Shown piece after piece: positions 3,192 through 17,905 of a stretch of DNA of 64,000 nucleotides. Source of the stretch: Stappia taiwanensis (GTDB lineage Bacteria; Pseudomonadota; Alphaproteobacteria; Rhizobiales; Stappiaceae); the NCBI RefSeq assembly GCF_014635285.1, contig NZ_BMCR01000004.1:186001-250000 (forward strand), read 5' to 3'. The position numbers and the translations under genes were made by a program. Below the pieces are notes generated by a model, which saw only the letters and a program-made list of their open reading frames with translations, did no database searches and was not told where the DNA came from. Numbering within the stretch: the stretch's first letter is position 1; each line of letters opens with the position of its first letter.

Positions 3192-4433
3192 TCACCCCTC
3201 CGCCCCGAGCTCCAATATCCGCGGCACCACGATCTGAAAGTGGTCGTCCCAGCTTGGCGGACGGAATGTCTCCAACCTGCGCACCTGCCGGGCGCGGCGC
3301 CGGGACCCGGGGTCGGCGTAGTCGCAAATCGCCTCCGCCCAGCCGAGCCCGTCGACCGGGTTCAGATACTCCGGCACCCCGGCGCCGATTTCCCGGAATG
3401 CCGGGATGTCGGAGGCCAGCGCCGGCACCCCGCTGGCAAGCGCCTCGACGAGCGGCAGGCCGAAGCCCTCCACGAAGGAGGGAAACAGCAGCGCGCGTGC
3501 ATTCCCCAGCAACTCCGACATCGCCGCATCGGACAGATCCGCCCGTTCGCTGACATGACCGCGCAGCGCCGTGCAGCGGTCGAGCATGTCAAACACCGCT
3601 TCCGCTTCCCAGCCCCGCCGGCCGACGATTTCCAGACGCGGGGTTTCCGGCCCCATCCGCTCGGCCAGTTGTCGCCAGACATTGAGAAGCAGCAGGTGGT
3701 TCTTGCGCGCCTCAATGGTGCTGACAAACGCAAAATATGGGCGCTGCGAGGGCGCCGGTGCCGGCAGCTCAGGGCGCCCACCCTCCCACAGGCGCCCCTC
3801 GACGCCCAGATGGGCCGTGACCGTTTTGGGCGTACGCAGGCCCTTCCGGGCCGTATACGCCTTGAGCGCCCCGTCCGTGTAGTGAGAATTCGCGATCACA
3901 AGATCGGCACAGGCGCTGATGGTTTCCACGCGTCTCTGGTGCTCGGAAATAGACCGCTCCACGACATATTCGGGGTGGGTGAGCGGGATCAGATCGTGCA
4001 GAAAGCAGACAACCCGAATGTCCCCGCGCTGCGCCAGGCGCCGCACGATCCCGCCTGGCTGCAGGCCACCATGGTCGAGCGACAGATAAACCGTTCCCGG
4101 AGCAAGGCCGCGCATCGCCATGCCGCCCCCGGTCAGCACCCGCAAGGCCGCGGCGCGGAGCGCCGCCAGCCGCCCGCTCCCCGGCCCAAGCGAAGCGTCC
4201 GCCCCGCCTCCATCGAACCAGCGCGCGCGCGTGGCATCGATCAGCCGATCGCCGAAAGTCTCGGGAAAGCGAAACAACCGCCCCCCGGCCGCGTAGGCAC
4301 AGGTCAACCGGATTTCCGGCCGTGCCCGCAATTCCAGAAGATAGGCCAGGATGACCCGGTCGATGCCTGTCGGGGTTGCCCGCGACAAACGCCGGACCAG
4401 ACGCCCGATATCAACAACGACTTCAGTCACCAT
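3192..4433 (-). CDS. GT4-family glycosyltransferase
   Basis: A 413-residue glycosyltransferase with the two-Rossmann (GT-B) layout of family GT4, predicted to add a sugar from a nucleotide sugar to a growing surface glycan on the cytoplasmic face. The nucleotide-sugar motif is EGFGLPLVEALASG followed by VPALASDIPAFREIG. The mid-protein motif VSTIEARKNH is shared with the glycosyltransferase at 4985 (VSTIEPRKNH), suggesting the two are paralogues in one pathway. The start at 4433 begins MVTEVVVDIGRLV; ATGs at 4457 and 4484 are in-frame alternatives with a poorer protein start. Donor and acceptor sugars cannot be read from the sequence. Confidence 0.88.
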   Translation of the reverse strand: MVTEVVVDIGRLVRRLSRATPTGIDRVILAYLLELRARPEIRLTCAYAAGGRLFRFPETFGDRLIDATRARWFDGGGADASLGPGSGRLAALRAAALRVLTGGGMAMRGLAPGTVYLSLDHGGLQPGGIVRRLAQRGDIRVVCFLHDLIPLTHPEYVVERSISEHQRRVETISACADLVIANSHYTDGALKAYTARKGLRTPKTVTAHLGVEGRLWEGGRPELPAPAPSQRPYFAFVSTIEARKNHLLLLNVWRQLAERMGPETPRLEIVGRRGWEAEAVFDMLDRCTALRGHVSERADLSDAAMSELLGNARALLFPSFVEGFGLPLVEALASGVPALASDIPAFREIGAGVPEYLNPVDGLGWAEAICDYADPGSRRRARQVRRLETFRPPSWDDHFQIVVPRILELGAEG

Positions 4434-4984
4434 CCGCTTCTCATCCGCCGCGCGCATCCAGCCACCACACGCCTGCGTGGTCATACACCCGGTGATGGCA
4501 CAAGCGACGCGACAAAGCGAGCATGGCGGGACGCCCCCCCGCGCACCTGAAGCTTGGCCGCCAAAAACACCCCGTTACAACAAGCGAAGCGGAACGGAAT
4601 TCAAGCAGAAAAAAGACAATAAACTGATACACTCAAGTCTCTTCAGGACAACACCAGCTCCACCGGCAACATTCAACGCAGAATTGATTGATTTTATTAT
4701 TATAGTCCTATCCCTTCAAATGGTTACAAGCATGATGCGGGGATTTGCAGGCATGCAATCGACCAATTCCCCCTCCAGCCGCCCTTGCATCCCGCGCCTT
4801 TGTCGGTAAATCTCCCGCCCGCCGCCCGGCCGCCCGACAACACCTGAGCGATTCGCCACGTGCAAACGACGCAAGACAGACACCGCCTTGTCAGATTTTT
4901 GCGGCATAGCCTTGGGCTTCGGGAGCCTTTCGGACTCCTGGCCTTTCAGCAGCGCATGGCTTCAGACTTTTCAGCGGAGCAGAA
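4434..4984. promoter_or_regulatory. 550-nt divergent intergenic region, AT-rich core
   Basis: No convincing gene is seen between the two divergent glycosyltransferase genes. The middle part (about 4600-4740) is much richer in A/T than the surroundings, with runs such as TTGATTGATTTTATTATTAT near 4684, consistent with promoter DNA serving one or both glycosyltransferase genes. I could not identify a well-spaced -35/-10 pair. Short reading frames inside it (for example 4716-4907 on the minus strand) have no recognisable protein features. Confidence 0.5.
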
Positions 4985-16923: not shown

Positions 16924-17083
16924 CGGCAGTCTTCGCGCATCATGCCCACCGACCAGACAGACGCGCATCCCGAAAAGCGCACCAGTCCCTCACCTACGCC
17001 ATGCATAGCGCGTCCGACCGCCCGATGCAGCCGTTGATATCGAACGGCTGCCGACCTGCCATCGGTGCCCTTCACGATGGCAT

Positions 17084-17905
17084 TCAGCCCTGCATCACCG
17101 CTCGGCTGATCAGATCGCGATTGCCTGCGGCAAAGAACCCGGGATTGGCAAAGTCCACATCGTCCGCCTGGTCGGTTTTGCCATACCCGAAGGGGGTCCC
17201 GTCCAGATGCGTCACGAGCCCTCCGGCCGCGCTCAGGACAGCTTGCCCCGCAGCGGTATCCCACTCCATGGTTCGCCCGAAACGCGGGTAGAAATCCGCC
17301 TCCCCACAGGCCACCATGCAGAACTTCAGCGACGACCCCACGCTGATCCGCTCTCCCACGGACAGACGCGTCAAAAGGTCTTCTGTTTTCGCATCGCCGT
17401 GGGACCGGCTGGCGACCGCGACCGGTGGAACCTCCGCTGCTTCACGCACCTGAATCGGCTTCCAGGCGCCGATCCGGCCCTCCACAATCTCCGCAAGAGC
17501 CGCGCCGCTCTCCCGCTCTCCTGCGTAGAGGACCTGCCGCGCGGGTGCGAGCACCACGCCAAGCACAGGCTCGCCGTCTTCCACAAGAGCAACATTCACC
17601 GTGAAATCACGGCGACCTGAGATAAATTCGCGTGTTCCATCAAGAGGATCGACCAGAAGAAACCGGCCACCGATCCGGGGCACATCTCCGCCGGCGACGG
17701 CCTCTTCCGCGACAACGGGAACACCGGAGAAGATCTCTCCCAGACCGGCCAGAATGATTTCTTCCGCCGCCCGGTCGGCTTCCGTCACCGGGCTGTCATC
17801 CGCCTTGTGTTCGACGTCCACGCCCAAGCGGTGAAACCGCAGGATCGCATCACCTGCCTGCTTGCACAGCTCGGCAACTTTTCCGATTTCGCTCGACCAG
17901 GTCAC
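17084..17905 (-). CDS. cysQ: 3'(2'),5'-bisphosphate nucleotidase CysQ
   Basis: A 273-residue member of the inositol-monophosphatase superfamily. The metal-site motifs are present: VTEADRAAEE, then VVAEEA, DPLDGTREF and EWDTAAGQAVL. CysQ dephosphorylates PAP, the product left after sulfotransfer from PAPS, so it is the recycling partner of the sulfotransferase. I choose the GTG at 17905, preceded by GGGGAG six bases upstream, which gives the usual family length. ATGs at 17920 and 17995 are in-frame alternatives, the latter with an AGGA site but a Pro/Gly-rich extension not expected in the family. The gene is upstream of cysD-cysNC on the same strand. Confidence 0.92.
   Translation of the reverse strand: MTWSSEIGKVAELCKQAGDAILRFHRLGVDVEHKADDSPVTEADRAAEEIILAGLGEIFSGVPVVAEEAVAGGDVPRIGGRFLLVDPLDGTREFISGRRDFTVNVALVEDGEPVLGVVLAPARQVLYAGERESGAALAEIVEGRIGAWKPIQVREAAEVPPVAVASRSHGDAKTEDLLTRLSVGERISVGSSLKFCMVACGEADFYPRFGRTMEWDTAAGQAVLSAAGGLVTHLDGTPFGYGKTDQADDVDFANPGFFAAGNRDLISRAVMQG

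Follow-up and report, generated by a model that had tools for sequence, protein, structure and literature searches.

A split capsule-type locus of Stappia taiwanensis with sulfate activation genes and a gene for a tail-fibre-like DUF2793 protein

Two sulfated bacterial capsules have been published together with gene clusters of similar composition: in Cobetia marina KMM 1449 (PMC11766843; 2025) the kps genes are accompanied by cysD/cysN/cysC, cysQ and a sulfotransferase gene, and in Vibrio sp. KMM 8419 (PMC11641403; 2024) by cysD/cysN/cysC and a sulfotransferase gene. For RcGTA, the gene transfer agent (GTA) of Rhodobacter capsulatus, a tail fibre that binds the capsule and head-spike genes that adjoin capsule genes have been described (PMC10218006). 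The stretch analysed here, hereafter the window, comprises 64,000 nucleotides of the Stappia taiwanensis genome (4.42 Mb, 20 contigs), positions 186001 to 250000 of contig C4. Between window positions 3192 and 17905 lie all the genes that an earlier note, made from the letters alone, had listed there: two family 4 glycosyltransferases (GT4), a sulfotransferase, two FkbM methyltransferases, KpsE, KpsM and KpsT, cysD, cysNC and cysQ, and a DUF2793 protein, whose nature as a GTA- or phage-type tail fibre the note had missed. Gene content agrees with its proposal of an exported capsule-type glycan provided with a sulfotransferase and a supply of 3′-phosphoadenosine 5′-phosphosulfate (PAPS). Its remark that this is not a described system finds no support beside the Cobetia and Vibrio clusters: a putative sulfated-capsule locus with built-in PAPS genes is an arrangement of an already published kind.

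On balance we favour, with some confidence, the reading that the locus represents half of a capsule pathway, probably for a sulfated capsule, accompanied by the fibre of the bacterium's own GTA, which would recognise the glycan made next door. In such a scheme CysD and CysNC would make PAPS, the sulfotransferase would move sulfate onto the growing glycan in the cytoplasm, the two FkbM enzymes may O-methylate it, KpsM, KpsT and KpsE would export it together with a KpsD encoded on contig C1, and CysQ would clear the product 3′-phosphoadenosine 5′-phosphate (PAP). The DUF2793 protein, encoded behind kpsT, would be the receptor-binding tail fibre of a GTA whose own cluster has no fibre gene; packaged into the particles, it would dock by its N-part to the megatron baseplate protein and bind by its variable C-part the surface glycan made by its neighbours, probably in the sulfated form.

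Capsule genes on two contigs

KpsM, KpsT and KpsE in the window make up the exporter of a kps-type capsule, all of them scoring below the curated cut-offs, and the window kpsE is the only match in its genome (E 1e-15). Profile search found no Poly_export (KpsD/Wza) gene in the window, and three occur elsewhere in the genome, as the earlier note had expected of the outer-membrane channel. One of them, a KpsD-type channel on contig C1 (Poly_export plus SLBB), heads a capsule block with three Capsule_synth proteins of KpsC/S type (the two scanned against NCBIfam both match KpsS, below cut-off), a BioF-like enzyme, a 2,529-residue type I polyketide synthase (PKS), an epimerase and ugd; the block also includes a second cysQ-cysD-cysNC set, a methyltransferase, manC, manB and a GlcNAc 2-epimerase. 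The kps genes are therefore not in one cluster here, being divided between contigs C4 and C1; for ABC-transporter-dependent capsule loci such clustering is usual, not required. In a relative, G083, a single locus carries kpsD, Capsule_synth genes, the BioF-like gene, PKS, epimerase, ugd, cysQ-cysD-cysNC, an importer, DUF2793, kpsE, kpsM and kpsT. Because the cores of both halves form one locus there, we read the window locus and the C1 block as two parts of what would be one ABC-transporter-dependent capsule pathway. The layout resembles that of rhizobial rkp loci. It also resembles the wcb genes cited in PMC11766843.

The capsule loci of related genomes have features of their own. A sulfonate/taurine-type ABC importer, recognised by profile or homology, follows cysNC in G083, G075 and G080, and this three-gene order, with a matching ATPase, recurs at five further capsule loci within the genus. 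An IS110-type transposase gene lies between cysQ and cysD in G075 (L083:6258-7229), and in G084 a PseB-like (UDP-GlcNAc 4,6-dehydratase) gene (L128:17655-18650) separates kpsT from the fibre gene, as one probably does in G080 (L127:2610-3605; equal length and place). A relative of the first GT4 gene (62% over 174 aa, cut by the stretch end) adjoins manB in the G078 capsule locus.

The fibre protein and the placement of its gene

DUF2793 is listed as the RcGTA tail fibre, and its family co-evolves in rate with GTA genes, according to PMC10883770. Over residues 4-132 the window protein aligns with 8gtc chain S (residues 1-129 of 230, nine chains; E 7.5e-21), the fibre of phage vB_DshS-R4C. PMC10276861, where 8GTC is mentioned, divides the nine R4C fibre proteins into rod (1-35), knob (36-117) and lectin-like foot (118-230), the megatron being bound by an N-terminal extension of the rod. 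The N-part of the window protein is thus homologous to the megatron-docking rod and knob of an R4C-type fibre; its C-part could not be aligned significantly to the foot of R4C (E 2500 for the second stretch) and hits a different family of phage tail fibres (PHROG, E 5e-30). The database name of 8gtc chain S is ‘Ribonuclease III’, a label also found on a phage match alongside ‘gene transfer agent-like protein’/‘tail protein’. Relatives of DUF2793 occur in 370 phage records, by the N-part only among the matches listed. Compared with eight other fibres of the genus, the N-parts are 47-56% identical, and the 249-aa C-part of the window fibre shares nothing with them beyond a 21-residue stretch. 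Among those others two groups, G080/G084/G078 and G075/G085, show 77-90% identity between the C-parts of their members, those of G083 and G076 are 47% identical, and some more stand at about 30-40%.

The bacterium's own GTA cluster lies 44 kb away and has a full-length megatron (NF048004, 1637 bits, cut-off 800) with hub, tail and HK97-type capsid genes. Only 51 bp separate the megatron from the next gene, and the fibre slot is empty, as it is in the GTA clusters of G083 and G075; in G009 the megatron is followed by a 241-aa DUF2793 protein whose match to 8gtc chain S spans residues 3-229. The window gene is the only DUF2793 of its genome. G083 also has a further, diverged megatron set of prophage-like character (G083:C1:2240000-2259900), which includes a DUF2793 gene.

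The family sample comprises 87 genomes, 14 of them of the bacterium's own genus (g1); g2 to g7 denote other genera. It yields 93 DUF2793 matches, of which those within 6 kb of a megatron number 3 of 4 in g2, 8 of 8 in g4, 2 of 2 in g5, 32 of 36 in g7, 8 of 26 in g6, none of 3 in g3 and 1 of 14 in g1. One of 14 fibres in the genus itself thus stands near the megatron, against 45 of 50 in g2, g4, g5 and g7. Where a megatron match was split in two, which happened four times, the distance table behind these counts omits the second fragment; it also omits the kpsE and cysD rows of genomes without DUF2793, the cysD rows of G003 and the adjoining second kpsE copies in G037, G040, G041 and G073. Of the 14 DUF2793 genes of g1, 11 stand no more than 26 kb from kpsE or 15 kb from cysD, and that of G078 adjoins kpsM; each of the 12 g1 genomes with DUF2793, out of 14, carries a copy close to kps or cys genes, in different arrangements.

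For named genomes the best 80 of 591 confirmed DUF2793 loci were read, a locus being called non-GTA when the own GTA proteins, used as queries, had no match within about 10 kb (less at contig ends). Twenty-six stand beside GTA or phage tail genes, none of them with glycan or sulfation matches; the 54 non-GTA loci include 24 with a glycan match by strict and 30 by loose detection, and nine with sulfation matches, eight of which are cysD-cysNC. Counted within 10 kb, cysD-cysNC accompanies 8 of the 54 non-GTA loci and 0 of the 26 GTA loci. The strict counts are preferred because loose detection was too permissive in cysD-centred controls from other genera (7 of 10 loci loose, as “any”; 1 of 10 strict). 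Control regions gave a glycan match in 1 of 10, that one (L012) being a flank of the own C1 capsule locus. In Pseudohoeflea, Aminobacter and Mesorhizobium the fibre gene adjoins cysD and is divergent from it; since six of the eight cysD-cysNC loci come from Rhizobiaceae or Phyllobacteriaceae kin, this linkage represents few independent events. A neighbour tally over 53 of the 54 non-GTA loci (genes of 80-1000 aa) has 100 immediate neighbours, 11 from NDP-sugar epimerase families and 3 from the CysD family.

In a class-wide sample, selected independently of the window sequence, 58 of 387 genomes have DUF2793 (62 matches). Of the 61 matches outside the own genome, 48 loci were read (the 40 top-scoring and 8 of the remaining 21): 37 are GTA-linked, none with glycan genes, and 11 are non-GTA, five with glycan genes, one of these with sulfotransferases. 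Of 5 control regions shifted by 100 kb from non-GTA fibre genes, none showed glycan genes. Plasmid records with DUF2793 number 149; 15 were opened, picked for genus diversity among 60 listed, and 13 were annotated. Glycan-synthesis genes lie within 8 kb of DUF2793 in 11 of the 13 (the exceptions are Roseovarius faecimaris and Thalassococcus), sulfotransferases lie nearby in 4, and in one, from Chelatococcus, cysD and an adenylyl-sulfate kinase gene adjoin it. Linkage of fibre and glycan genes is frequent, not universal.

On individual plasmids, DUF2793 sits between rhamnose, manC and fucose genes in Phaeobacter inhibens pPGA1_65 (NC_018288.1, 65 kb) and has sulfotransferase genes on both sides, within 5 kb, in Cereibacter sphaeroides 2.4.1 plasmid pA. 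An msrB gene (window 2710-3138) lies about 6.4 kb from the window fibre gene, and in seven Parvularcula/Parvularculaceae/Marinicaulis loci the distance between msrB and the fibre gene is about 3 kb or less (L238, L251, L254, L258, L264, L268, L272).

Sulfation genes and the competing explanations

The coordinates of the locus are collected in Table 1. On the minus strand the order is cysQ-cysD-cysNC-kpsE-kpsM-kpsT-DUF2793, with gaps of 208, 1, 256, 26, 10 and 161 bp. The GC fraction is 0.665 over window positions 18150-64000 and 0.47-0.63 in 10 of the 12 locus genes; it is low in the sulfotransferase (0.465), kpsT (0.551) and cysD (0.574) genes, with kpsT, kpsM and cysD all at 0.55-0.57, and host-like in DUF2793 (0.662) and the first GT4 gene (0.676).

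Table 1. Genes of the capsule-type locus in window coordinates
Feature	Position	Strand	Basis
GT4 glycosyltransferase	3192..4433	-	PF00534 E 3e-17; start uncertain (4433, 4457 or 4484)
GT4 glycosyltransferase	4985..6475	+	PF00534 E 1.8e-19
Sulfotransferase (Sulfotransfer_2), N-terminal GREP/DUF4214-like stretch	6484..7428	+	PF03567 22.8 bits, cut-off 22
FkbM methyltransferase, N-terminal stretch as in sulfotransferase	7437..8375	+	PF05050 E 2.7e-15
FkbM methyltransferase, related C-terminal stretch	8440..9522	-	PF05050 E 1.7e-23
DUF2793 tail-fibre-like protein, 448 aa	9528..10874 (reading frame opens 10967)	-	PF10983 E 9.6e-33, 112 bits
kpsT-like ABC ATPase	11036..11692	-	Polysaccharide-exporter ATPase models best, below cut-offs
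kpsM-like permease	11703..12485	-	NF050053 KpsM E 1.8e-29, below cut-off
kpsE-like inner-membrane export protein	12512..13798	-	TIGR01010 E 2e-84, 284 bits, below cut-off 437.5
cysNC (sulfate adenylyltransferase subunit 1 / APS kinase)	14055..15959	-	NF004035 1040 bits, cut-off 715
cysD	15961..16875	-	NF009214 544 bits, cut-off 413
cysQ (PAP phosphatase)	17084..17905	-	TIGR01331 280 bits, cut-off 229

The sulfotransferase is marginal against the Pfam cut-off of 22.0 (22.8 bits in the window scan, 22.1 in the genome search), and searches of NCBIfam (E 0.001) and of the PDB (E 1) gave no match. Its translation contains HIPKTAGTSL and LRKPIDRIYSYY, seen by eye, as candidate PAPS-binding loops. 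As a conserved trait of the genus the gene is ruled out, having a full-length match in its own genome alone among the 87 of the family; two other family genomes have partial matches, and the catalytic part at E 1e-8 was found in the own genome and one other (34%, partial) of a 385-genome class sample. Sulfotransfer_3 is likewise ruled out as the enzyme of the genus, occurring in 7 of its 14 genomes with the own genome not among them. At least one Sulfotransfer_2 member is present in all 14, and the own genome has a second such gene at C1:628552-629232. Two plasmid relatives of the window sulfotransferase are 31-33% identical over 96-97%, one annotated as sulfotransferase family 2 and the other as hypothetical protein. 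Two of the three plasmids found by the sulfotransferase carry DUF2793 nearby, and the third does not in the stretch shown. The sulfotransferase (6484-6660) and first FkbM (7437-7610) genes encode a common N-terminal stretch with 16 identical residues, VIWAYRMILGREPESE, and the second FkbM protein has a related stretch at its C-end (8440-8700); by eye it is DUF4214-like, and Pfam did not call it.

CysNC, CysD and CysQ of the window all score above the curated cut-offs. In the 40-row CysD tree the window copy is sister to that of G083 (99/90), while the C1 copy falls in a separate clade of capsule-linked copies of g1 plus G006. No third cysD or APS kinase was found in the genome in a search that did not extend to other ATP sulfurylase families. 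CysH is encoded apart, beside cysG- and cysI-like genes, and carries CC and CxxC cysteine pairs typical of adenosine 5′-phosphosulfate (APS) reductases; the hidden Markov model scores do not separate APS from PAPS reductase. If CysH is an APS reductase, APS kinase and CysQ would be unnecessary for cysteine synthesis.

One challenge to capsule sulfation would be that cysQ-cysD-cysNC are ordinary sulfate assimilation genes that happen to stand beside a capsule cluster, the capsule itself being unsulfated. The family distribution favours it: cysD occurs in 86 of the 87 genomes, mostly as a single copy, relatives in other genera carry the cys cluster with neither kps nor DUF2793 nearby, and the window CysD, with that of G083, is nested among kps-free copies. 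Because of this nesting the cys genes are not clearly dedicated to what may be capsule sulfation, and the earlier note's “its own” sulfate genes, in the sense of dedicated ones, fares poorly: outside the genus 10 cysD loci were opened, and kpsE was seen at none of them; one (G006) has the PKS. The co-occurrence of cys and glycan genes which that note proposed to check holds in the genus and mostly fails in the other genera opened. Yet we consider an assimilation-only role unlikely: both cysD-cysNC sets of the genome (C4 window and C1) lie amid capsule genes, the cysteine pairs of CysH would suit an APS reductase, though the scores are undecisive, a sulfotransferase gene shares the 15-kb stretch, and the same gene mix is published with solved sulfated capsules in PMC11766843 and PMC11641403. 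A sulfotransferase acting on lipopolysaccharide or another acceptor is something we rate as rather doubtful. The second Sulfotransfer_2 gene on C1 and the presence of the family throughout the genus leave room for differing targets; against that, the window gene sits amid capsule genes, and three plasmid relatives have manC and glycosyltransferase genes in their vicinity, one of them together with ABC transporter genes.

For the DUF2793 protein the alternatives concern its origin and present employment. It might be a phage-derived protein that now binds capsule or matrix at the cell surface, unconnected with the GTA; the 161-bp gap to kpsT allows an operon, and the surroundings of the plasmid copies, so far as opened, are polysaccharide regions in which no GTA gene is annotated, one ‘tail fiber domain’ protein in Roseovarius faecimaris excepted. 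We think this improbable in view of the empty GTA fibre slot, the single DUF2793 of the genome and the retained homology of the megatron-docking part, together with the rate co-evolution reported in PMC10883770. That the gene is debris of a prophage decayed at this site is very improbable. The phage relatives would suit such an origin, but no other phage gene was recognised among those identified in the stretch, the frame is open with host-like GC, and all 12 DUF2793-bearing members of the genus have the gene near kps or cys genes in different arrangements.

A sulfated capsule with a neighbouring GTA fibre must itself be set against several observations. The sulfotransferase score is marginal, and because full-length matches are missing from all 86 other genomes of the family, sulfation by this enzyme would be strain-specific; neither it nor the window FkbM and GT4 genes were recognised in the G083 stretches read, and the CysD pair groups with copies apart from kps genes. 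Glycan linkage is absent from 6 of the 11 non-GTA fibre loci of the class sample and, strictly counted, from 30 of the 54 in named genomes, among which distant prophages could hide given the 10-kb definition. Glycan families appear too among 77 genes at least 7 kb away, making the neighbour contrast weak. The association of DUF2793 with GTA_TIM (57 of 59 family genomes with a GTA_TIM match, none of 28 without) is partly trivial, many fibres sitting inside the cluster, as most of those in g7 do, and two members of the genus with a GTA_TIM match, G077 and G082, lack DUF2793.

A wider proposal, put forward tentatively as a possibility we would not yet back, is that across Alphaproteobacteria the GTA fibre has repeatedly left the particle cluster for the locus that makes its receptor, often with sulfation genes, and that capsule type and fibre specificity are inherited or exchanged together as lock and key, steering transfer to cells with the same sulfated glycan. 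If the fibre gene travels with capsule genes, kin recognition in GTA exchange, by which related cells are reached and strangers spared, becomes directly testable; an exchange of capsules would then reroute gene flow among marine bacteria, and sulfated glycans would be concrete candidates for GTA receptors. The capsule part alone adds a further candidate producer of a sulfated bacterial polysaccharide.

Comparison with described systems

Rhizobial NodPQ/NodH has extra PAPS-making genes near a sulfotransferase; here, too, PAPS-making genes lie near a sulfotransferase gene, in two copies that both belong to capsule loci, with a putative polymer capsule and its exporter in place of a Nod factor. 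Cobetia marina KMM 1449 (PMC11766843) shares kpsE/T/M/D, kpsSC, cysNC, cysD, cysQ and a sulfotransferase with S. taiwanensis; the feature of that type, PAPS genes and a sulfotransferase with kps genes, is present here, the sulfotransferase being marginal. Alongside these, Cobetia has wcb genes for a lipid carrier and S. taiwanensis has PKS and BioF-like genes. The present locus differs in being spread over two contigs, in having cysQ-cysD-cysNC twice, a pair of FkbM genes and the DUF2793 fibre gene, and in showing no sulfate permease among the identified window genes. Vibrio sp. KMM 8419 is alike in having second cysC/cysN/cysD copies plus sulfotransferases in its kps cluster; its sugars are other, and in PMC11641403 ‘cysQ’ is absent from the main text and ‘tail fiber’ from the text.

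With RcGTA, its head spikes and its tail fibre Rcc00171 (PMC10218006, PMC10883770, PMC13420450), the likeness lies in receptor-binding genes outside the main cluster; here it is the tail-fibre gene itself that belongs to a kps/PAPS locus, and the fibre has a C-part other than the R4C-type foot. The phage vB_DshS-R4C fibre (8gtc; PMC10276861) aligns over its first 129 residues, whereas in the window protein the foot domain is replaced and the gene is not in a phage genome. A literature search conducted mostly without subscription papers found no report of a tail-fibre gene in capsule or sulfation loci.

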